Origin: a virus
DNA: 29,567 nt
Reading direction: 5' to 3' (one strand)
IMG/VR virus record: IMGVR_UViG_3300020118_000020
Coordinates: 1-29,567 of that record
The position numbers were made by a program, and so were the translations under genes. How positions within the stretch are numbered: position 1 is the stretch's first letter; every line of letters begins with the position of its first letter. Shown piece after piece: positions 5,177 through 24,248 of this stretch. The notes under the pieces are model-generated. The model was not told the origin of the DNA. It worked only from the letters and a program-made list of their open reading frames with translations, and did not search any database.

Positions 5177-5551
5177 ATGGCATTACCTACAGAACTAATG
5201 GGCGTCGGCTTTTCCGCTGCCCAAGCGTCTGGTGTTGGTGGCGGATATGCCGCTATCACTGGCGTTGGAACAGTACAAGGTGACGCAGTAGCGATCAATG
5301 CTGGTAGCGTTGTCGTAGCTGGCGCTGATGGCACTGTGGGCGCTCGCCTACCTGCTGTTGCAGTCGGGTCGGAGGTATGGGTTTTCAATAACTCCGCCTC
5401 GACGCTGAAACTCTGGCCTGACGTTGGCGCAGCCATTCCAGTGACCGGCACCGGCCTCGGTACTGCGAACTCGTCCTATGCCCTCCTGACATACAAGACC
5501 GCGCACTTGAAGCGCGTTACGTCGACGCAGTGGTTGATGGTGGTGACTTAA
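5177..5551 (+). CDS. Small beta-rich structural protein (decoration-like), 124 aa
   Basis: The ATG at 5177 lies behind AAGGAG (5163-5168), one base after the previous stop. The product is Gly/Ala/Val/Thr-rich with regularly alternating strands (AAITGVGTVQGDAVAINAGS, LPAVAVGSEVWVFNNSAS, LKLWPDVGAAIPVTGTGLG). This is the composition of small capsid-surface or fibre proteins that occur next to portal and capsid genes in many phages. It has no Cys, no membrane segment and no enzymatic motif. The call as a decoration-type protein is by composition and position, before the scaffold gene. Confidence 0.6.
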   Translation: MALPTELMGVGFSAAQASGVGGGYAAITGVGTVQGDAVAINAGSVVVAGADGTVGARLPAVAVGSEVWVFNNSASTLKLWPDVGAAIPVTGTGLGTANSSYALLTYKTAHLKRVTSTQWLMVVT

Positions 5552-7006: not shown

Positions 7007-8017
7007 ATGGGCTTCGCAAATTCCAGTCTAACCGACATTATTACCACGACGATTCAAAATCGATCCGGTACGGTGGCGGACAATCTTACGAACAATAATA
7101 TGTTCCTCCGTCGCCTGAAAGCGCGCGGGAATGTAAAACCGTTCGGCGGCGGTAATGTGATCGTTGAGGAGTTGATGTACAACGACAGCACGACCGACAA
7201 CTCAAATTCCTACTCAGGATATGAGGCAATTTCAATAACTCCGGACAGCCCCATCTCTGGTGCGCAGTTCAATATCATGCAGTATGCAGATTCGGTGTCG
7301 ATCAACGGGCTGGAAACTTTGCAAAATTCAGGCAAGGAAGCCATAATCGATTTGCTAGAAGCGCGTGTACGTGTCGCTGAAGCGCGGCTGCAAAACCGCA
7401 TTGCGTCGGACATCTATCTGGACGGTACCGGCAACGGCGGCAAGAACATCACGGGCTTGGCCGCCGCTGTTCCTGACGATCCAACGTTGGGCACATACGG
7501 CGGTATCAGCCGAGTGAACTACACCTTCTGGCGTCCGGGTAAGTATTCTGGCGTGACGAATGGTGGCGCCGCTGTATCTGCCGCAAACATTCAGGCGTAT
7601 ATGACTGCGGCCGCGCTCGCGCGTGTTCGCGGTTCTGATATGCCTGATCTGTACGTGGCTGACACGACCTACTACCAGTATTACGTGAACTCGCTGCAAG
7701 CAATTCAACGCATCAGCACCGAGGGCGGCGCGAACGACACTGGCGGATTGGGTAATGGCGCATCGCTGAAGTTTTTCGGCGGCGGCATGTCTGCAGACGT
7801 GATCATGGACGGCGGTATCGGCTCGAATGCAACGGCGAATCACATGTGGCTCCTGAACACGAATCACATTTTCTTCCGTCCGCATAAGGACCGCAATTTC
7901 GTCCCCATCGGTGGCGATCGTCAATCCGTCAACCAAGACGCGATTGTTCGGTTGTTCGGCTGGGCCGGTAATTTGACTTGCGACGGCGGCGAGTTCCACA
8001 GCGTTGTTATCGCCTAA
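7007..8017 (+). CDS. Major capsid protein
   Basis: 336 residues; ATG at 7007 with AAGGAG 8 bases upstream, a strong site. The N-terminal arm (SLTDIITTTIQNRSGTVADN) is followed by a basic patch and the capsid-type segment GGNVIVEELMYNDS. A helical spine-like stretch comes next (LLEARVRVAEARLQNRIASD), and a C-terminal half with LYVADTTYYQYYVNSLQAI and FVPIGGDRQSVNQDAIVRLFGWAG. This order fits the HK97 fold as found in podovirus coat proteins: N-arm, E-loop, long spine helix, A/P domain. No N-terminal propeptide is obvious. The position directly after scaffold and leader, and the strong ribosome site, support the call. It is a candidate acceptor for the sugar cassette that follows. Confidence 0.88.
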   Translation: MGFANSSLTDIITTTIQNRSGTVADNLTNNNMFLRRLKARGNVKPFGGGNVIVEELMYNDSTTDNSNSYSGYEAISITPDSPISGAQFNIMQYADSVSINGLETLQNSGKEAIIDLLEARVRVAEARLQNRIASDIYLDGTGNGGKNITGLAAAVPDDPTLGTYGGISRVNYTFWRPGKYSGVTNGGAAVSAANIQAYMTAAALARVRGSDMPDLYVADTTYYQYYVNSLQAIQRISTEGGANDTGGLGNGASLKFFGGGMSADVIMDGGIGSNATANHMWLLNTNHIFFRPHKDRNFVPIGGDRQSVNQDAIVRLFGWAGNLTCDGGEFHSVVIA

Positions 8018-8028
8018 GGAGAATCATC

Positions 8029-8562
8029 ATGGCATATACTTTTCAACATGATGTCGCAGGCTTGATGCCTATTGCGAACACAGACGCCGGCTACACGCCA
8101 GGCAACGCATCGGCGGCTATTCCATCGCCGCCGATGTCGCCCGGTATGATCATGACGGCAACCGATCCGACTTACGGTCAAGGGGAATTCATTCTCTTGC
8201 TGGGCGTCGCATCGACCATCGTTGGTTCGCTGGTTCGTTACAATGCGGTCAGCTTCCAGACTGTCTTGGCGGTCAATACAGCCGTTCAAGCCATGCCGGT
8301 GGCTGTTGCAATGTCGGCGAACTTGGCCGGCACATGGGGCTGGTATCAAATCTCAGGTACTGCGGTGCTGGCGAAAACAGCCGTTATCGTCTTGCCTAAC
8401 GTGGCCGTGTATATCTCGGGCACTGCGGGTAAGGTGAAGGCGATTGCGTCGGCTGGCTTGCAGGTTGTGGCTTGCCGTTCACAATTGGTTACAACGGCTA
8501 GTGCGTCGGGCACAGTGCTAGTTACTGTATCGCGCCCACACCTGCAATCGCAAATTACGTGA
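8029..8562 (+). CDS. Capsid decoration-like protein, 177 aa
   Basis: ATG at 8029 with AAGGAG at 8016-8021, 11 bases after the capsid stop. The sequence is low in charge, rich in Ala/Val/Thr/Gly, with alternating beta-type strands (GEFILLLGVASTIVGSLVRY, VAVYISGTAGKVKAIASAG) and no membrane topology. Small beta-rich proteins immediately downstream of the coat gene are usually head decoration or cement proteins that sit on the outer capsid surface. It is the last gene before the terminator at 8598-8627. No catalytic motif is visible. Thr- and Ser-rich surface stretches (TTASASGTVLVTVS) would be plausible glycosylation sites, but that is speculation. Confidence 0.68.
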   Translation: MAYTFQHDVAGLMPIANTDAGYTPGNASAAIPSPPMSPGMIMTATDPTYGQGEFILLLGVASTIVGSLVRYNAVSFQTVLAVNTAVQAMPVAVAMSANLAGTWGWYQISGTAVLAKTAVIVLPNVAVYISGTAGKVKAIASAGLQVVACRSQLVTTASASGTVLVTVSRPHLQSQIT

Positions 8563-8597
8563 TTTGAGTTTGTTTGGTTGGCGTTTCGTCGTTACAC

Positions 8598-8627
8598 ATG
8601 CGGGGGCTTCGGCTCCCGTATTTTTTT
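8598..8627 (+). terminator. Strong intrinsic terminator with a C(UUCG)G loop
   Basis: CGGGGGC (8601-8607) pairs with GCTCCCG (8612-8618) around TTCG, the exceptionally stable UUCG tetraloop, and is followed by TATTTTTTT. ATG/TAT flanks can extend the stem. It closes the capsid unit and stands only 9 bases before the ATG of the sugar cassette, with the GGAG ribosome site immediately behind its T-run. The cassette is therefore read only by read-through, antitermination or an unseen promoter. Confidence 0.88.
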
Positions 8628-8636
8628 GGAGCAAAG

Positions 8637-9392
8637 ATGTTTCGCGATACTACTATCGTCGTTACGGGCGCGGGCGGTTCAATCGGATCGGCACTGTGCA
8701 GGAAATTAGCAACAATGGGTTTGAAACAATTGATCATGTTCGAGTCGAGCGAATACGCGCTTTACCGAGTGGATCAAGATGTGCAATGCAATAAATTGGC
8801 CGTGCTTGGCGATGTCAAGGACAAGGGTCGATTAGACGAATTTATGGAGGGCGTGGATTATATTTTCCACTGCGCCGCCTACAAGCACGTTCCGATGTGC
8901 CAAGGCATCAATGCCAATGAGGCGCACAAGAACAATTACATCGGCACGGTCAACGTGCTGGAAGCCGGCAAGAAAGCAAAAGCAATCGTGCTGCTGTCCA
9001 CCGACAAGGCGATCAATCCCGCTTGCGTGATGGGCGAGACAAAGCGCATGGCAGAGCAGGCCGCAATTCGCTACGGGCGCACCGTGGCACGGTTGGGCAA
9101 TATCTTGGAGTCAAGCGGGAGCGTTATTCCGAAGTTTCGCGAGCAGATTGCGGCCGGCGGCCCGGTCACTGTGACGCATCCGGAAACGACACGCTATTTC
9201 ATTCCGATGGATCGCGCAGCGGATTTTATTTTAAGTTGTGCAACGCATCCCGCTGACACGTACACTGTGCCAATGGGCGAGCCGCGCAAGATTCTGGCTG
9301 TTGCCCGCGAAATGATTGGCGACAAGGATATCGAAATCGAGTTCATCGGCTTGCGCGACGGAGAGAAGTTGCACGAGGAAATTACCGAGTGA
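8637..9392 (+). CDS. FlaA1/CapD-type NDP-sugar 4,6-dehydratase (short form)
   Basis: 251 residues from the ATG at 8637 (GGAG at 8628-8631). This is an extended short-chain dehydrogenase with the Rossmann motif GAGGSIG at 11-17. It keeps the diagnostic FlaA1/CapD strings: CAAYKHVPMCQ (79-89), LSTDKAINPACVMGETKRM (120-138), RLGNILESSGSVIPKF (152-167), GGPVTVTHPETTRYF (174-188) and GEKLHEE (242-248). STDK plus M132 and K136 matches the Ser-Met-Lys arrangement of WbpM/PglF-type enzymes rather than Ser-Tyr-Lys. The family converts UDP-GlcNAc to a UDP-4-keto-6-deoxy-HexNAc. It is shorter than FlaA1 (~330) and lacks the N-terminal membrane part of WbpM. It overlaps the next gene by 4 bases. Confidence 0.88.
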   Translation: MFRDTTIVVTGAGGSIGSALCRKLATMGLKQLIMFESSEYALYRVDQDVQCNKLAVLGDVKDKGRLDEFMEGVDYIFHCAAYKHVPMCQGINANEAHKNNYIGTVNVLEAGKKAKAIVLLSTDKAINPACVMGETKRMAEQAAIRYGRTVARLGNILESSGSVIPKFREQIAAGGPVTVTHPETTRYFIPMDRAADFILSCATHPADTYTVPMGEPRKILAVAREMIGDKDIEIEFIGLRDGEKLHEEITE

Positions 9393-9766
9393 TCGCGCTA
9401 CAAACAATCGTCACATCGCGCAGCAAACTTACCGTCATTGAGAAACTGCCATTCGATATCAAGCGAGTTTATTATCTGCACGGCATAGATCCGGATGTGC
9501 CACGTGACGGTCATGCACATAAGGATCTGCGCAGGTTGCTGATTGCGGCTCATGGTAGCTTTATCGTGCGGCTGGATGGCGAAGAAATTACACTATCTGA
9601 TCCGTCCGAAGCGCTGCCAATCGAGCCGCTCCAATGGCTTGAATTTCTCGGCTTCACGCAGAATGCGGTAGTGATGGTAATCGCATCCAAAGAGCACGAC
9701 GAAACAGACTGCATCCGCAGCAAAGAAGAACTAACCAAACTTAAACTGGACTACTCCAATTTATGA
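9389..9766 (+). CDS. FdtA/WxcM-like sugar 3,4-ketoisomerase (cupin)
   Basis: 125 residues starting with GTG that overlaps the dehydratase stop (GTGA). A single cupin barrel: PFDIKRVYYL (21-30), then GHAHKDLRRLLIAAHGSFIV (41-60) with the paired His (H42, H44) that act in catalysis in FdtA/QdtA, then VRLDGEEITLSD, LPIEPLQWLEFLGFT and a closing KEHDETDCIRSKEEL. These are in family order. FdtA-type enzymes shift the keto group of a 4-keto-6-deoxy NDP-sugar to C3. FdtA and QdtA use dTDP-glucose derivatives; here the partner is a FlaA1-type enzyme, so a UDP-HexNAc substrate is inferred. The usual R-G before HAH is R-D-G, a small deviation. No aminotransferase follows. Confidence 0.85.
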   Translation: MIALQTIVTSRSKLTVIEKLPFDIKRVYYLHGIDPDVPRDGHAHKDLRRLLIAAHGSFIVRLDGEEITLSDPSEALPIEPLQWLEFLGFTQNAVVMVIASKEHDETDCIRSKEELTKLKLDYSNL

Positions 9767-11856
9767 TATCAATTATTTTGCCGTACTGGGATCGACAACA
9801 AGCAGCCGATGAAGCAATCACGCTGTTGAATAAGACATACGCAGGACTCGATTTAGAGTTGGTCATCGTGGACGACGGGAACAAAACCCCGTTCGTGATG
9901 CCGCCTACTGGCTTCAAAGTGAAATTGGTGACGCTCCCGCAAAAGAGCGAGCCGAAGTGCCCGACAACCGCATGGAACGCAGGCGTAGCAGCTGCGACCG
10001 GCGATGTGATCGTGCTGAGCTGCATCGAAATCCTGCATCAGAATCCGGTGCTAGAGCAGATGCTGGAGCAGTTGCAAGACATGGGTCCATCAGGCTACGT
10101 TCTCGCGGCTGCATGGTGTCCTGAGTCGTCCCAGTGGCATTGCCATAGCACTGTGAAGGTGCCGCGCAATCCGGAAGGAACCGGAATCGCATTCTGCGGC
10201 ATGATGTATCGGTCGCTGTGGGATAAGTCGGGCGGCTTCGATGAAGAGTACCGCGAAGGCGCGGGGTACGAAGACAATGATTTTATCAACCGCATGATCG
10301 AGGCGGGGGCGCGGTTCAAAATCCGCGATGATCTGGTGGTTGTGCATCCGAAAACGGGCGCATCAATCGAATGGGGTACTGGCAAGTTTGTGCGCAACGA
10401 GGCGCTATATTACTCGAAATGGCCTGATGAATTGCGCAAGCCTACGACTACGTTCGTTTGCCTGAATTCCGGAGATTATTGTGGTCGTGGTGCAGAGTAT
10501 GTGAACAATCTGTTTGACATGGTGAAGCGCAATCTGTCGGCGAATGTCGATGGGCGCTTCGTCTGTCTAACCGATGACGCGACAGGGCTGCATCCTGATA
10601 TTCAACCGATGATGCTACCGTCCGATATCAAAGGATGGTGGGGCAAACTCTACCTGTTCAAGGATGGGTTATTCCCCAAAAACGAGCGCATGATCTATTT
10701 CGATCTGGATACGCTGATCATCAATAACATTGATGAGATCATGGCGTATGACGGTGATATCGCGATGCTGGACGATTTCCTGAATCCTGGCACGATTGCG
10801 CCGGGTGTGATGCTGTGGCGCGCGGGCGTGGCTAACGCGATTTGGGATGAATGGAACCGCAACGGCAGGCCCGGGAATATCCAAGGCGACCTGTGGTTTA
10901 TCAATTCGATCGCGCATGCTTTGCCGAAAATCGAGAAGCTGCAAGAGTTGATGCCCGATGGCTTCGTCAGCTACAAGCAGAGCGCAACGACAGCGCCGCC
11001 GTTCGGCTCGTCCGTAGTCTGCTTCCATGGACTCCCGCGCCCGCATGAGGTCGAAGGCTGGGTCGCAGATGTCTGGAAAATCGACGGCGTGTCGAGTTCG
11101 GAATTGAAGGTAAAGAATAACGTCAATCTAGCGACGATCAAGCGGAATATTGATATTAATTCGCGGCGTGATATTCCGTGGATTGAATTGCAAGACGCAC
11201 ATGAGCGAGAGGTCCTGATTATTGGCGGTGGCCCATCGCTGATAGAAGACTTGAATGAAATTCGGGAAAGATTTGAAATCGGCGGTAAGGGCGGCTATAT
11301 CTTGGCGCTTAATGGATCGGCAAAGATGATTTCGGAGCAGGGGATGATACCAAATTCCATAGTCATCATAGACGCCAGAGAATCAAATGTGAAATTCACC
11401 GATCAAACAACGCACAAATTTTTTCTTGCCTCGCAGTGTGATCCATCAGTATTTGATAACGCCGTTGGCGCGACACTGTTCCACATCGATATCCCCGATC
11501 TCGGCTACTACGTTCCAGGCGATCGCCCGATTCAAGCTATCGGCGGCGGCAGCACAGTTGGGCTGATAGCCATGTCGCTAGCTTATACGCTCGGCTTTCG
11601 CACCATGCACTTGTATGGCTACGATTCGAGCTATGCTGACGATGCACATCATGCGTACGACCAGCCGGAAAATGACGACGAGCACACGTTTAACGCGCAC
11701 GTCGGCGGTAAGACCTTCCGCTGCGCGCCGTGGATGGTGACGCAAACGAATCAGTTTCAGAATTTGGCAAAACAATTGATCGAGATGGATTGCAAGATAC
11801 ACGTGCACGGAACCGGACTGCTTCCGACCGTGGCGTGGCAAATGATGGGCCGGTAA
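9763..11856 (+). CDS. Three-domain glycosyltransferase: GT2 + DXD glycosyltransferase + MptE/Maf-like domain
   Basis: 697 residues; the ATG overlaps the upstream stop (ATGA). Domain 1 (about 1-220) is GT2-like: ISIILPYWDR, VIVDDG (34-39), WNAGVAAATGD, GGFDEEY and GYEDNDF (168-174). Its usual DXD is replaced by LSCIEI (85-90). Domain 2 (about 228-445) is a second GT-A fold with a clear DXD, IYFDLDTLII (311-320, D314 and D316), GVMLWRAG and GDLWFINSI. Domain 3 (about 480-697) is of the MptE-like/DUF115 (Maf flagellin glycosyltransferase) type: VLIIGGGPSL (484-493), ALNGSAKMI, VIIDARES (534-541), GGGSTVG (594-600) and LYGYDSS (617-623). There is no membrane segment. It is the likely transferase for the sugar made by the two genes before it; the acceptor is unknown. 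Confidence 0.85.
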   Translation: MISIILPYWDRQQAADEAITLLNKTYAGLDLELVIVDDGNKTPFVMPPTGFKVKLVTLPQKSEPKCPTTAWNAGVAAATGDVIVLSCIEILHQNPVLEQMLEQLQDMGPSGYVLAAAWCPESSQWHCHSTVKVPRNPEGTGIAFCGMMYRSLWDKSGGFDEEYREGAGYEDNDFINRMIEAGARFKIRDDLVVVHPKTGASIEWGTGKFVRNEALYYSKWPDELRKPTTTFVCLNSGDYCGRGAEYVNNLFDMVKRNLSANVDGRFVCLTDDATGLHPDIQPMMLPSDIKGWWGKLYLFKDGLFPKNERMIYFDLDTLIINNIDEIMAYDGDIAMLDDFLNPGTIAPGVMLWRAGVANAIWDEWNRNGRPGNIQGDLWFINSIAHALPKIEKLQELMPDGFVSYKQSATTAPPFGSSVVCFHGLPRPHEVEGWVADVWKIDGVSSSELKVKNNVNLATIKRNIDINSRRDIPWIELQDAHEREVLIIGGGPSLIEDLNEIRERFEIGGKGGYILALNGSAKMISEQGMIPNSIVIIDARESNVKFTDQTTHKFFLASQCDPSVFDNAVGATLFHIDIPDLGYYVPGDRPIQAIGGGSTVGLIAMSLAYTLGFRTMHLYGYDSSYADDAHHAYDQPENDDEHTFNAHVGGKTFRCAPWMVTQTNQFQNLAKQLIEMDCKIHVHGTGLLPTVAWQMMGR

Positions 11857-11872
11857 CAGAACAAACTTCACA

Positions 11873-11901
11873 AGGCGTCTTAGGGCGCTTTTTTTACGCC
11901 T
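11873..11901 (+). terminator. Intrinsic terminator after the sugar cassette
   Basis: GCGTC (11875-11879) pairs with GGCGC (11884-11888), one G-T pair, around TTAG, and is followed by seven Ts (11889-11895). An alternative fold pairs AGGCGT (11873-11878) with ACGCCT (11896-11901). It lies 16 bases after the glycosyltransferase stop and together with the terminator at 8598-8627 frames the cassette. Confidence 0.75.
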
Positions 11902-11922: not shown

Positions 11923-12591
11923 ATGAGCATTAATCTCGACACCGATATCAAACGACCTGACTCGCATTTACAAGTGAGCTTCTACCAACGGACATTGAAG
12001 GACGACTATAAGTCGGAGCAACAAACGAAAGAGGCCGGAGAGCCGAAGACGGTTAATTATGTTGCCGACTACATCAAGATAGAAGTTCCCGGCAACAAGC
12101 ATCTGGTAATCGACACGCCGGCGCGCGAAGAACACAAAAAGCGCTTTCCTATGCATTGGGCCGCGTACCAAAACAACAGCAATGCAAATAATAGTTATGC
12201 CGGCACACCAATCGAGCAGTGGCCGCGCGTGATGATAAATCCAGATATGGCCGTTGAGTTGCGCTCGCTGAAATTCAACACAATTCAGGCGATCGCTGGC
12301 GCATCGGATTCGCAGTTGCAAGCCATCGGCATGGTAGCAGGTCAGAATGCATTCACGTTCCGCGATGACGCGCGGCAGTTCCTTGCGACGGAAGAATCAA
12401 AATTAAAATTGAGCGCCGCTGCCAAGACGAACGCGGAAGCCGATGCAAAACTGGCGGAGGCCAATGCAAAATTAGCGGCGCAGGCCGAGCAACACGCAAA
12501 AGACTTGGCAGAAATGAGAGACCAAATGCAGGCTTTCATGGCGGCGAATATGCCGAAAAAACCCGGGCGACCAGCAAAGGAAGTTGAATAA
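11923..12591 (+). CDS. Structural-module protein with C-terminal coiled coil and GRP tail
   Basis: 222 residues, ATG at 11923 with TAGGA upstream. The N-terminal ~140 residues are mixed alpha/beta with many charged residues (YIKIEVPGNKHLVIDTPARE, EEHKKRFPMHWAAYQ). From about 155 to 205 there is an Ala/Lys/Glu-rich coiled coil (AEADAKLAEANAKLAAQAEQ). The end, KKPGRPAKE, resembles an AT-hook, a minor-groove DNA contact. Proteins of this shape are common between capsid and neck genes of podovirus-like phages. An internal head or packaging role with DNA contact is inferred. It resumes the virion operon after the cassette terminator. Confidence 0.65.
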   Translation: MSINLDTDIKRPDSHLQVSFYQRTLKDDYKSEQQTKEAGEPKTVNYVADYIKIEVPGNKHLVIDTPAREEHKKRFPMHWAAYQNNSNANNSYAGTPIEQWPRVMINPDMAVELRSLKFNTIQAIAGASDSQLQAIGMVAGQNAFTFRDDARQFLATEESKLKLSAAAKTNAEADAKLAEANAKLAAQAEQHAKDLAEMRDQMQAFMAANMPKKPGRPAKEVE

Positions 12592-12900: not shown

Positions 12901-13809
12901 ATGTCATCTACGTTGCTGCAATTGATTCAACAGGCTACCGGCGAAATGGGGATTAGTGTGCCTACCTATGTTGCTGCGAATACTGCTACCGACAGCATTC
13001 AGCAGTTGGCATTATTGAATGCGCTCGGATATGAATTGCAGCAGCAATATGAATGGGAGCATGCGGCGGTTGCCTATCGTTTTACGACGGCATATTTGAC
13101 GACGACAGGCAATACCACGATCAACTCGCCGATCGTTACCAACATTCCTTCTACGGCTACGCTTTCAGCTCTCAATTTCACGGCGACCGGGTCGCCCTTC
13201 AACGCCGACACGCACATCTTGACGGTTGATTCCGCCACGCAGGTAACGTTGTCGCAGAATTGCACATCAACTGCGGCCGGCGGCGCAATTAATTTCTGCA
13301 AGACGAAATACACAATGCCGACTGATTATGACCGGCAGATCGAAAAGACGCAGTGGGACAAAACGAAGCATTGGGCGATGCTTGGCCCTGTCACGGCGCA
13401 GCAATGGGAGTTGTTGAAGTCGGGTTATATATCGACAGGACCGCGCATCCGTTACCGCATTTTCGGCGGCAAATTTCAGATATGGCCGCCGCTAACATCA
13501 AATGAATATCTCGGTTTTGAGTACATGTCTAATTATTGGGCATTAGATGTGAGCGGTACGGCGAAAGGTTCATTTACCGTTGATACTGACACTTGCGTTT
13601 TCCCAGATCGATTGATGGTTCTCGGGCTGAAGTTGAAATATTTTGAGGTAAAAGGGTTTGATACTACCGCCTTGAATCGAGACTTCAATCAGCAACTGAG
13701 TATCGCAAAAGCGGCAGATGGGGGCAGTCAGACATTATCGATGGCACCGCGAATAGGATCGATTTTGATTGGCCCTGACCAGATTCCGGATTCTGGATTT
13801 GGCAGCTAA
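12901..13809 (+). CDS. Head-tail adaptor-like (neck) protein, 302 aa
   Basis: Starts at the ATG at 12901, two bases after the previous stop; the ribosome site is weak (GGA). It opens with a helical bundle (LLQLIQQATGEMGISVPTYV, IQQLALLNALGYELQQQYEW), the pattern of P22 gp4/T7 gp11-type adaptors that stack under the portal. A Thr-rich beta insertion follows at about 60-130. The conserved-looking core is MPTDYDRQIEKTQW, then IRYRIFGGKFQIWPPL, and a helical end. It is likely the ring between portal and tail hub. Assignment is by fold pattern and by position right before the hub protein. Confidence 0.68.
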   Translation: MSSTLLQLIQQATGEMGISVPTYVAANTATDSIQQLALLNALGYELQQQYEWEHAAVAYRFTTAYLTTTGNTTINSPIVTNIPSTATLSALNFTATGSPFNADTHILTVDSATQVTLSQNCTSTAAGGAINFCKTKYTMPTDYDRQIEKTQWDKTKHWAMLGPVTAQQWELLKSGYISTGPRIRYRIFGGKFQIWPPLTSNEYLGFEYMSNYWALDVSGTAKGSFTVDTDTCVFPDRLMVLGLKLKYFEVKGFDTTALNRDFNQQLSIAKAADGGSQTLSMAPRIGSILIGPDQIPDSGFGS

Positions 13810-22854: not shown

Positions 22855-23187
22855 ATGACGACAAACACGGCTAAACGGTTATCGCAGACCGCATTGACGA
22901 ATACGACGACAACTTTACTCTATACGGTTCCTGCGGCAACCTCGACAATCTTGAAGGAAATCGTGCTGTGCAATACCGACACGGTGGTTCGAACGGTCAC
23001 AATTCAGGCCGGCCCGACGCCGGCTACCTCGGTTGCTACGCGACTGATTAATGCTGTTTCGATTCAGCCTAACGAAACGCAAATCTATTCGTTCTCGAAT
23101 ACACTGCTAACGACTGATTTGGTCACCGGGGGCGCAAGCGCTGGATCGGTTGTATCGTGTTCGATCAGTGGATGGGAGATCGCATGA
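22855..23187 (+). CDS. Small fibre-associated protein, 110 aa
   Basis: ATG at 22855, two bases after the fibre stop. Beta-rich and Thr-rich (LTNTTTTLLYTVPAATSTIL, TRLINAVSIQPNETQIYSFS), with the character of small proteins found between fibre genes in many phages. No membrane segment or catalytic motif. It overlaps the next gene by ATGA (23184-23187). It is likely a structural part or capping subunit of the fibre. Its make-up resembles the protein at 1852-2253. Confidence 0.6.
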   Translation: MTTNTAKRLSQTALTNTTTTLLYTVPAATSTILKEIVLCNTDTVVRTVTIQAGPTPATSVATRLINAVSIQPNETQIYSFSNTLLTTDLVTGGASAGSVVSCSISGWEIA

Positions 23188-24248
23188 GCAATATTGCATC
23201 TTCTATGCGGCAAATTTACCCGCGCCACCCCGCTATATTTTTCGCAACAACCACTACATACACCATTCCGTCTAACGGATGGTATCGACTTTCTGCGGTC
23301 GGCGCCGGCGGCTCTGGCGCGGCGATCTTCACTACGACCACGGGCGGCGCAGCGTCTGGGGGTGGTGGCGGTGGATTTTGTGAAACTGAAGTATATCTCG
23401 TCGCGGGAACTGTGCTTACAATCACAATCGGCGCTGGCGGTGCCGGTAAATCCTCGTCGATTAGTGGCACTGGCGTAGCTGGCGCAGCTGGCGGCAATAC
23501 GTCGATTAGCGCGACTGGCCTTACCACGATGACCGCAAATGGCGGCGGCGCTGGCGCATTCACCGTCACAAATACTGCCACAGCAACAGGCGGTACTGGC
23601 GGCACAGCAACAGGCGGTACGACCGTCAACAGCACTGGAGGCGCTGGTGGCAATGCGACGCATGCGACGAACGGGACTGAATCAGGCGGCGGTGGATCTG
23701 CTGGAAGTCCGTTTGGCGTCGGTGGCGCGGGCGGCGCGGCATCCTCTGGTGTCAATAATCGAGCTGGCGGAGGAAGCATCGCTTTCGCTGGCCTCACTGC
23801 CACTGGTACCGCTGGTACAGGCGGCTCTGGAGTCGGTGGCGCGTCGACGGGAACTGCGGCTGGACTTAATGTATTGAAATTCGCAAGCGCCAATAGTGCG
23901 GACGGTCTTGCGAGAACAACCCCTGGATTTGAATCGTTCACCAACCCGTTCCGTGCGCTGTCCGGCGGGGGTGAGGCTGCTGTCAATATGAGCGCGCAAG
24001 TGATGCCCGGGGCTGGCGGCGGCGGTAGTGGATTAATTGACACGACAGGCGGTCAGCAAACGATTTTAATGAACGTGATGGGTGGTGGCGGTGGCGTGGC
24101 AAGCAGCGCGGCGTTTGCTTGCGGCTCCAATATCTCATCTGGCGGCGTAGGCGGAGGGACGGGCGGTGCGACATCATCGAATACTGGCCCAGCACTCTCC
24201 GCTGTCGGCGCAAACGGCTTGGTTTCTATTGAAGGGATAGGTGGATGA
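23184..24248 (+). CDS. Glycine-rich tail tip/receptor-binding-type protein
   Basis: 354 residues from the ATG at 23184, which overlaps the preceding stop; a GTG-like start at 23157 is less likely. A short head (IFFATTTTYTIPSNGWYRLS) leads to AVGAGGSGAA, the standard opening of glycine-rich phage tip domains. Poly-Gly loops and beta-strands follow (GGGGGGFCETEVYL, LTITIGAGGAGK, GGGGSAGSPFGVGGAGGAAS). Such proteins form polyglycine-II-type bundles at fibre tips that contact the receptor, as described for some T4-like and other adhesins. A tandem 24-base duplication lies at 23579-23620. The antisense open frame (Pro-rich) is an artefact of Gly codons. Confidence 0.72.
   Translation: MSNIASSMRQIYPRHPAIFFATTTTYTIPSNGWYRLSAVGAGGSGAAIFTTTTGGAASGGGGGGFCETEVYLVAGTVLTITIGAGGAGKSSSISGTGVAGAAGGNTSISATGLTTMTANGGGAGAFTVTNTATATGGTGGTATGGTTVNSTGGAGGNATHATNGTESGGGGSAGSPFGVGGAGGAASSGVNNRAGGGSIAFAGLTATGTAGTGGSGVGGASTGTAAGLNVLKFASANSADGLARTTPGFESFTNPFRALSGGGEAAVNMSAQVMPGAGGGGSGLIDTTGGQQTILMNVMGGGGGVASSAAFACGSNISSGGVGGGTGGATSSNTGPALSAVGANGLVSIEGIGG
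23579..23620 (+). repeat. 18-bp direct repeat, 24-bp period, in the glycine-rich gene
   Basis: CACAGCAACAGGCGGTAC occurs at 23579-23596 and again at 23603-23620, exact, separated by 6 bases. It encodes a repeated TATGGT unit in an 8-residue period. The exact DNA identity suggests a recent in-frame tandem duplication by slippage in the receptor-binding region. Confidence 0.8.

Follow-up and report, generated by a model that had tools for sequence, protein, structure and literature searches.

A Maf-like glycosyltransferase in a fixed capsid-side slot of Mx8-like phages: a probable virion glycosylation cassette with exchangeable sugar enzymes

Background

To our knowledge, glycosylation of the phage virion has been shown so far in only a few phages. 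As reported in PMC12363180, which cites Freeman et al. 2023, the capsid and tail tube proteins of the mycobacteriophages Che8, Corndog, and Myrna are glycosylated by transferases that these phages encode themselves, and two glycoproteins were observed in phage XacN1 (PMC5852040). Here we describe a locus in the 29,567-base viral record IMGVR_UViG_3300020118_000020 (the window, analysed over its full length), whose order of head and tail genes resembles that of Myxococcus phage Mx8. Among its virion genes, as among those of its relatives, lies a gene for a glycosyltransferase, here preceded by genes for a sugar-nucleotide dehydratase and a sugar ketoisomerase. As in the mycobacteriophages, the glycosyltransferases are phage-encoded, with the virion acceptor deduced in our case from the genes; unlike there, the hosts are others and a core related to the flagellin glycosyltransferase Maf occupies a fixed slot in the capsid operon with sugar-nucleotide enzymes beside it. 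Phage virion glycosylation itself is thus already known, and the slot with its Maf-like core is a new variation on it.

The phage proteins have in common with Maf, of which the Magnetospirillum enzyme has been solved (5mu5), a homologous DUF115/MAF domain, and as with Maf the gene adjoins that of an abundant, assembled, and exposed protein. The phage domain differs in standing alone or being fused with GT2, GT8-like, or methyltransferase domains, and in its presumed acceptor, which would be the phage particle; moreover, no nonulosonate genes, and hence no nonulosonic acid pathway, were recognised in the window, although the host might provide such a sugar. The best-supported explanation, to which we assign a probability of roughly 70%, is that the locus is a cassette for the glycosylation of virion proteins in a fixed slot of Mx8-like phages.

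Results and discussion

A fixed slot with rotating sugar enzymes

Eighty contigs with a similar capsid protein (designated, like the other relatives, by L numbers) showed the site to be a slot of variable content, in which DUF115 was present in about 30. It was commonly part of a single gene of about 450 amino acids (aa) that also encodes an S-adenosylmethionine (SAM) methyltransferase. In other slots DUF115 had no partner, or GT4-like and GT8-like genes came after it, both assigned by sequence inspection as Pfam matched neither. Another group carried the full three-domain transferase of the window, mostly behind a sugar C-methyltransferase (Methyltransf_13/23/14 type); FdtA preceded it in three others (L051, L107, and L174), and dehydratase plus FdtA only in the window. 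This comparison of related genomes, which a preliminary description of the window had proposed, shows that the dehydratase-ketoisomerase pair is not the core of the site: the dehydratase was found in the window only and FdtA in four phages. What stays constant is the DUF115 domain, touched on just briefly in that description, and the sugar enzymes rotate around it.

A search with the DUF115 domain only returned at least 355 relatives among 2.9 million viral contigs. All of the best 80, which were mapped and some of which lie on contigs shared with the earlier searches, occupied this slot to the extent that their contigs reveal it. In 61 of the 80 the capsid and decoration genes lay upstream and the neck genes downstream; the remaining 19 comprised six with capsid and decoration genes upstream, five with the decoration gene upstream and neck genes downstream, and eight with neck genes downstream. 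Nearly all of these 19 are cut by a contig end, and each displays at least one slot border. Seven of the eight neck-only contigs begin less than 1 kb upstream of DUF115, and in the eighth, L188, no recognisable capsid gene was found in the 1.5 kb upstream of it. Mx8 has its capsid, decoration, and border genes ordered as in the window, but its slot is empty, with nothing between the decoration and the border gene. The slot, in which a Maf-like transferase regularly adjoins the decoration gene while the sugar enzymes are exchangeable, is our stronger finding, and the placement of the best 80 loci in it, to the extent just described, is one reason why we favour virion glycosylation; another is that the partner enzymes in the slot (SAM methyltransferase, sugar C-methyltransferase, FdtA, GT4/GT8-like, and GT2) are sugar-related.

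For the whole transferase, a single sequence returned nothing and an alignment of two was effective; for DUF115, ten domains served as the search alignment, all 29 together being too diverse. In 399 genomes of the order of Pandoraea, a search with the full transferase profile that had no positive control gave no match.

The position also bears on whether the enzymes might instead modify the host surface, altering the O-antigen or another envelope glycan in the lysogenic state or in the late phase of infection and so excluding other phages or preventing adhesion to debris. Phages commonly do so with gtr clusters, enzymes of the PglF/FlaA1 and FdtA types normally serve cell-surface polysaccharides or glycoproteins, and L107 is probably a prophage, judging by its isolate-type IMG number. 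We nevertheless regard this reading as unlikely, as the cassette lies among late capsid genes in all mapped relatives and DUF115 remains coupled to the slot at capsid identities down to about 33%. The GtrA flippase (PF04138) was absent from 11 phage records (the window and ten related ones), and the three cassette enzymes have no clear membrane anchor or segment, in agreement with the preliminary description; for these reasons a gtr-type seroconversion cluster was rejected as an identity for the locus. Several relatives come from assemblies of bacterial genomes or from a probable prophage, which makes a laboratory test feasible.

A three-domain transferase and its Maf-like domain

The cassette of the window comprises the following features.

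8637..9392, + strand: dehydratase of the PglF/FlaA1 type; ATG start, 251 aa; Pfam PF02719, 3.6e-77
9389..9766, + strand: sugar 3,4-ketoisomerase of the FdtA/QdtA type (cupin); GTG start, 125 aa; Pfam PF05523 FdtA, 1e-24
9763..11856, + strand: glycosyltransferase, whole chain; ATG start, 697 aa; three domains
9763..10446, + strand: transferase domain 1, GT2-type GT-A, aa 1-228; PF00535, 3.7e-6, and PF02709; tandem GT-A fold
10447..11082, + strand: transferase domain 2, GT8-like GT-A with DLD motif, aa 229-440; phrog_1962 glycosyltransferase, 3.5e-26
11110..11853, + strand: transferase domain 3, DUF115/MptE-like (Maf-related); PF01973 MptE-like, 2e-18

The 697-aa protein consists of three predicted transferases in one chain, a GT2, a GT8-like GT-A, and a C-terminal DUF115/MptE-like domain, so that its earlier designation as a Maf-type transferase fits its last third and not the rest. 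Its predicted model (predicted local distance difference test, pLDDT, 84.7) matched two-domain GT-A polymerases, LARGE, and the flagellin transferase Maf. A profile of 29 phage DUF115 domains matched Maf (5mu5) at 2.2e-15, MptE (8sd5) at 6.9e-7, and, weakly, the GT42 sialyltransferases at 0.003, so that, by sequence comparison, the flagellin O-glycosyltransferase is a closer relative of the domain than the pterin kinase MptE is. This proximity to Maf, found by both profile and structure, is a further reason for favouring virion glycosylation. The pterin pyrophosphokinase MptE was considered as the closest solved relative and rejected, its profile match being weaker than that of Maf and the domain being fused to glycosyltransferase domains.

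Ten phages have the transferase at full length, and D314-L-D316 of its second domain is invariant in 10 relatives. Hydroxymethylated bases are possible substrates of phage GT-A enzymes, and the cassette could in principle glycosylate modified DNA as in the T-even phages. The hydroxymethylated base would, however, require a thymidylate-synthase-like gene, and the 11 records have none; given this, the location among virion genes, and the Maf-like domain, we consider this the least probable of all the readings. The failure to find a GtrA flippase, a thymidylate synthase, or a clear membrane anchor thus also favours virion glycosylation.

Regarding donors, the Clostridium Maf enzyme is reported to take several (PMC11339370), and by analogy the DUF115 step could use a host-made donor.

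Variants of the transferase occur in L108, where a 1000-aa version (7875-10877) has two tandem DUF115 domains, and in L112 (7989-10102), where it is split into two frames of 547 and 171 aa, possibly through a frameshift or sequencing error. The middle domain of the window (10447-11082) is, at about 26% identity, distant kin of P1 PmgQ and P7 HdmD, to which morphogenetic functions have been putatively ascribed, and of XacN1 ORF373. One uncultured-phage relative in UniProt is 50% identical over the full length, and such relatives, A0A6J5PVH5 among them, are named '6-hydroxymethylpterin diphosphokinase MptE-like', a name that is probably misleading; the naming of phage DUF115 proteins as pterin kinases in databases is put in question.

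Sugar-nucleotide enzymes

The dehydratase is predicted to be a soluble nucleoside diphosphate (NDP)-N-acetylhexosamine (HexNAc) 4,6-dehydratase of the PglF/FlaA1 type. Its nearest solved relative is Campylobacter PglF/WlaL (5bju, 1.4e-52), and it retains the TGxxGxxG nucleotide-binding motif and the active-site Thr-Asp-Lys and Met positions. With the uridine diphosphate (UDP)-HexNAc 4,6-dehydratases PglF, WbpM, and FlaA1 it thus has in common the fold family and active site, but it lacks the membrane part of PglF and WbpM and is short at the C-terminus, the alignment reaching residue 289 of the 366 of 5bju, so that about 75 C-terminal residues of the solved chain are absent.

The ketoisomerase matched QdtA (4zu7) at 3.4e-23 and FdtA (2pa7) at 4.3e-20, and both catalytic histidines of its HAH motif are conserved. 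The cupin family and these histidines are common to it and the FdtA/QdtA 4-keto-6-deoxyglucose 3,4-ketoisomerases; it differs from them in lacking a partner aminotransferase and in being paired with a UDP-HexNAc-type dehydratase. The position that we take to set the stereochemistry of the product is a Leu in the window, which matches neither type and gives no basis for choosing between their products. The FdtA genes found in viral contigs all directly precede the triple transferase. They share 47-57% identity with the window's FdtA, against 47% for the closest bacterial protein in 300 genomes, and the phage FdtAs constitute a group of their own.

A DegT-type aminotransferase, the FdtB/QdtB partner, lay within 500 bases of 16 of 20 bacterial ketoisomerase homologues, and none was found in the 11 phage records. 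The proposal that the phage makes its own sugar therefore holds for the enzyme families, with an incomplete pathway: the product may be a keto sugar, or the host may finish it.

These gaps raise the question of whether the genes are a decayed or transient set of host origin with no present function. The short dehydratase, which no other viral contig was found to carry in a search that reaches close relatives only, and the missing aminotransferase would fit this, but the frames are intact with 4-base overlaps, the active sites are conserved, and the phage FdtAs form their own group always preceding a transferase that is full length in ten phages; we judge decay very improbable.

The decoration protein and the case for virion glycosylation

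Immediately upstream of the slot in the window are two virion genes.

7007..8017, + strand: major capsid protein, Mx8-like; phrog_9953 major head protein, 1.8e-94; 47.5% identical to the Mx8 major virion protein
8029..8562, + strand: capsid decoration (cement) protein; phrog_29386 virion structural protein, 1.1e-20; Mx8 homologue annotated 'major virion structural protein'; predicted fold

The predicted structure of the decoration protein (pLDDT 84.9) has the fold of a capsid cement protein, with matches to capsid proteins of Pam3, TW1, Sf11, T1, and HFTV1; against capsid cement and decoration proteins the best E was 6.4e-4 at a template modelling (TM) score of about 0.5. Of 57 phages with a long decoration protein, 45 carry DUF115, whereas all 32 phages with a short one lack it. 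This match to cement proteins and the tracking of the long form likewise favour virion glycosylation, although the association of DUF115 with the decoration type is suggestive only. Mapped onto the capsid tree, DUF115 switches between presence and absence nine times (seven of them forced by supported branches), and the short decoration form arose at least three times.

In the short type, a 92-100-aa gene, which looks shortened and never occurs with DUF115, replaces the long decoration protein (L019-L025, L061-L079, and others). In three contigs with the long decoration protein and no DUF115 (L006 11578-11958, L008 7651-8061, and L060 11726-12124), the slot holds a gene of 124-136 aa whose product has the look of a further surface protein, in the style of 5177-5551 of the window.

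An acceptor elsewhere in the virion, such as a tail fibre, neck, or tail protein with a glycan serving adsorption, would make the decoration-side slot merely convenient. The neck and tail genes do come directly after the slot, and tail tube proteins of mycobacteriophages are also reported to be glycosylated (PMC12363180); the tracking of decoration type by DUF115 (45/45, 0/32) points the other way, though on few independent changes, and leaves this alternative a shade less likely than modification of the host surface.

Returning to glycosylation of a capsid protein, the DUF115/Maf-like domain would begin the glycan by linking a sugar to Ser/Thr residues of an abundant capsid protein. The likeliest acceptor is the product of the adjacent upstream gene, the decoration protein, or else its neighbour. 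Both GT-A domains of the transferase would then extend the glycan with further sugars. The dehydratase and ketoisomerase may supply an activated 6-deoxy keto-sugar as one building block, UDP-4-keto-6-deoxy-HexNAc shifted to its 3-keto form, which a host enzyme may complete. The glycan would coat the capsid and could alter its stability, stickiness, or recognition. Gene content, domains, conserved active-site residues, the fixed capsid-side slot, and rotating tailoring enzymes are what we observed; from them we infer that a virion protein is the acceptor, which protein this is, how the glycan is linked, which donors are used, in what order the sugars are added, and what the phage gains.

Several points weigh against this interpretation. 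Characterised Maf enzymes use nonulosonic acid donors and not deoxyhexoses. Twelve phages with the long decoration protein, Mx8 included, lack DUF115, and independent pairs were concordant in only two to three of six, never opposite (p 0.25-0.5, too few for significance). The trees of neighbouring genes show nearly the same pattern as that of the decoration gene, so linkage alone could account for the association. Ser/Thr enrichment was tried and dropped as a clue to the acceptor, long types having 22% vs 16% but short types without DUF115 24%. Finally, none of 50,697 phage records matched DUF115, leaving no cultured relative with the cassette.

The preference of the preliminary description for virion glycosylation over host-surface change was strengthened by the relatives and is probably right as to purpose, the glycan itself being deduced. 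A broader proposition, to which we would give even odds, is that Mx8-like phages own a dedicated family of capsid O-glycosyltransferases of shared ancestry with Maf, fixed next to the decoration gene, with exchangeable sugar-making and capping enzymes, yielding lineage-specific glycans that include keto-, C-methyl-, or O-methyl-deoxy sugars. That sugar enzymes are swapped while the transferase stays the same hints at selection for varied glycans. With a version of this transferase in the slot of over seventy related contigs, virions that bear sugars may be common in this little-studied phage group. If the DUF115 family is fixed in the capsid-operon slot of many environmental phages, virion glycosylation would be a general trait with a simple marker.

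Borders of the cassette and neighbouring genes

The remaining features of the region flank the cassette.

8598..8621, + strand: intrinsic-terminator-like hairpin ending the capsid/decoration unit; 10-bp stem and T run; -17 kcal/mol, z -3.7
11872..11891, + strand: weaker terminator-like hairpin 3' of the cassette; -10 kcal/mol, z -2.1; T run after it
11923..12591, + strand: conserved border gene, function unknown, downstream of the slot; phrog_20268; right border in most relatives
12901..13809, + strand: tail/neck-like protein; phrog_6013 tail protein, 3e-43

Gene calls and Pfam confirmed the three enzymes of the preliminary description, both junctions being 4-base overlaps, and the relatives strengthened their placement in the virion operon. 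Its extent of 8598-11895 spans both hairpins, with coding sequence only at 8637-11856; of its two strong terminators the first deserves the name and the second is weaker; and its placing of the cassette between decoration and neck genes is accurate upstream, whereas downstream the border gene intervenes before the tail/neck-like gene at 12901.

Of 54 relatives, 16 have a hairpin 3' of the decoration gene, both among those that carry DUF115 and among those that do not. As two of the bearers (L081 and L089) have no glycosyltransferase in the slot, the hairpin belongs to the decoration gene and not to the cassette. It fits a terminator that damps transcription behind very abundant capsid genes, in which case the enzymes would arise from read-through; a promoter search gave nothing above chance. 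Further along the window, the gene at 13815-15368 matches phrog_5107, named 'amidase', at 1.7e-118 yet lies among neck and tail genes, and the name may be doubtful. The product of 23157-24248 is very glycine-rich and resembles tail fibre assembly or minor tail proteins (phrog_863).

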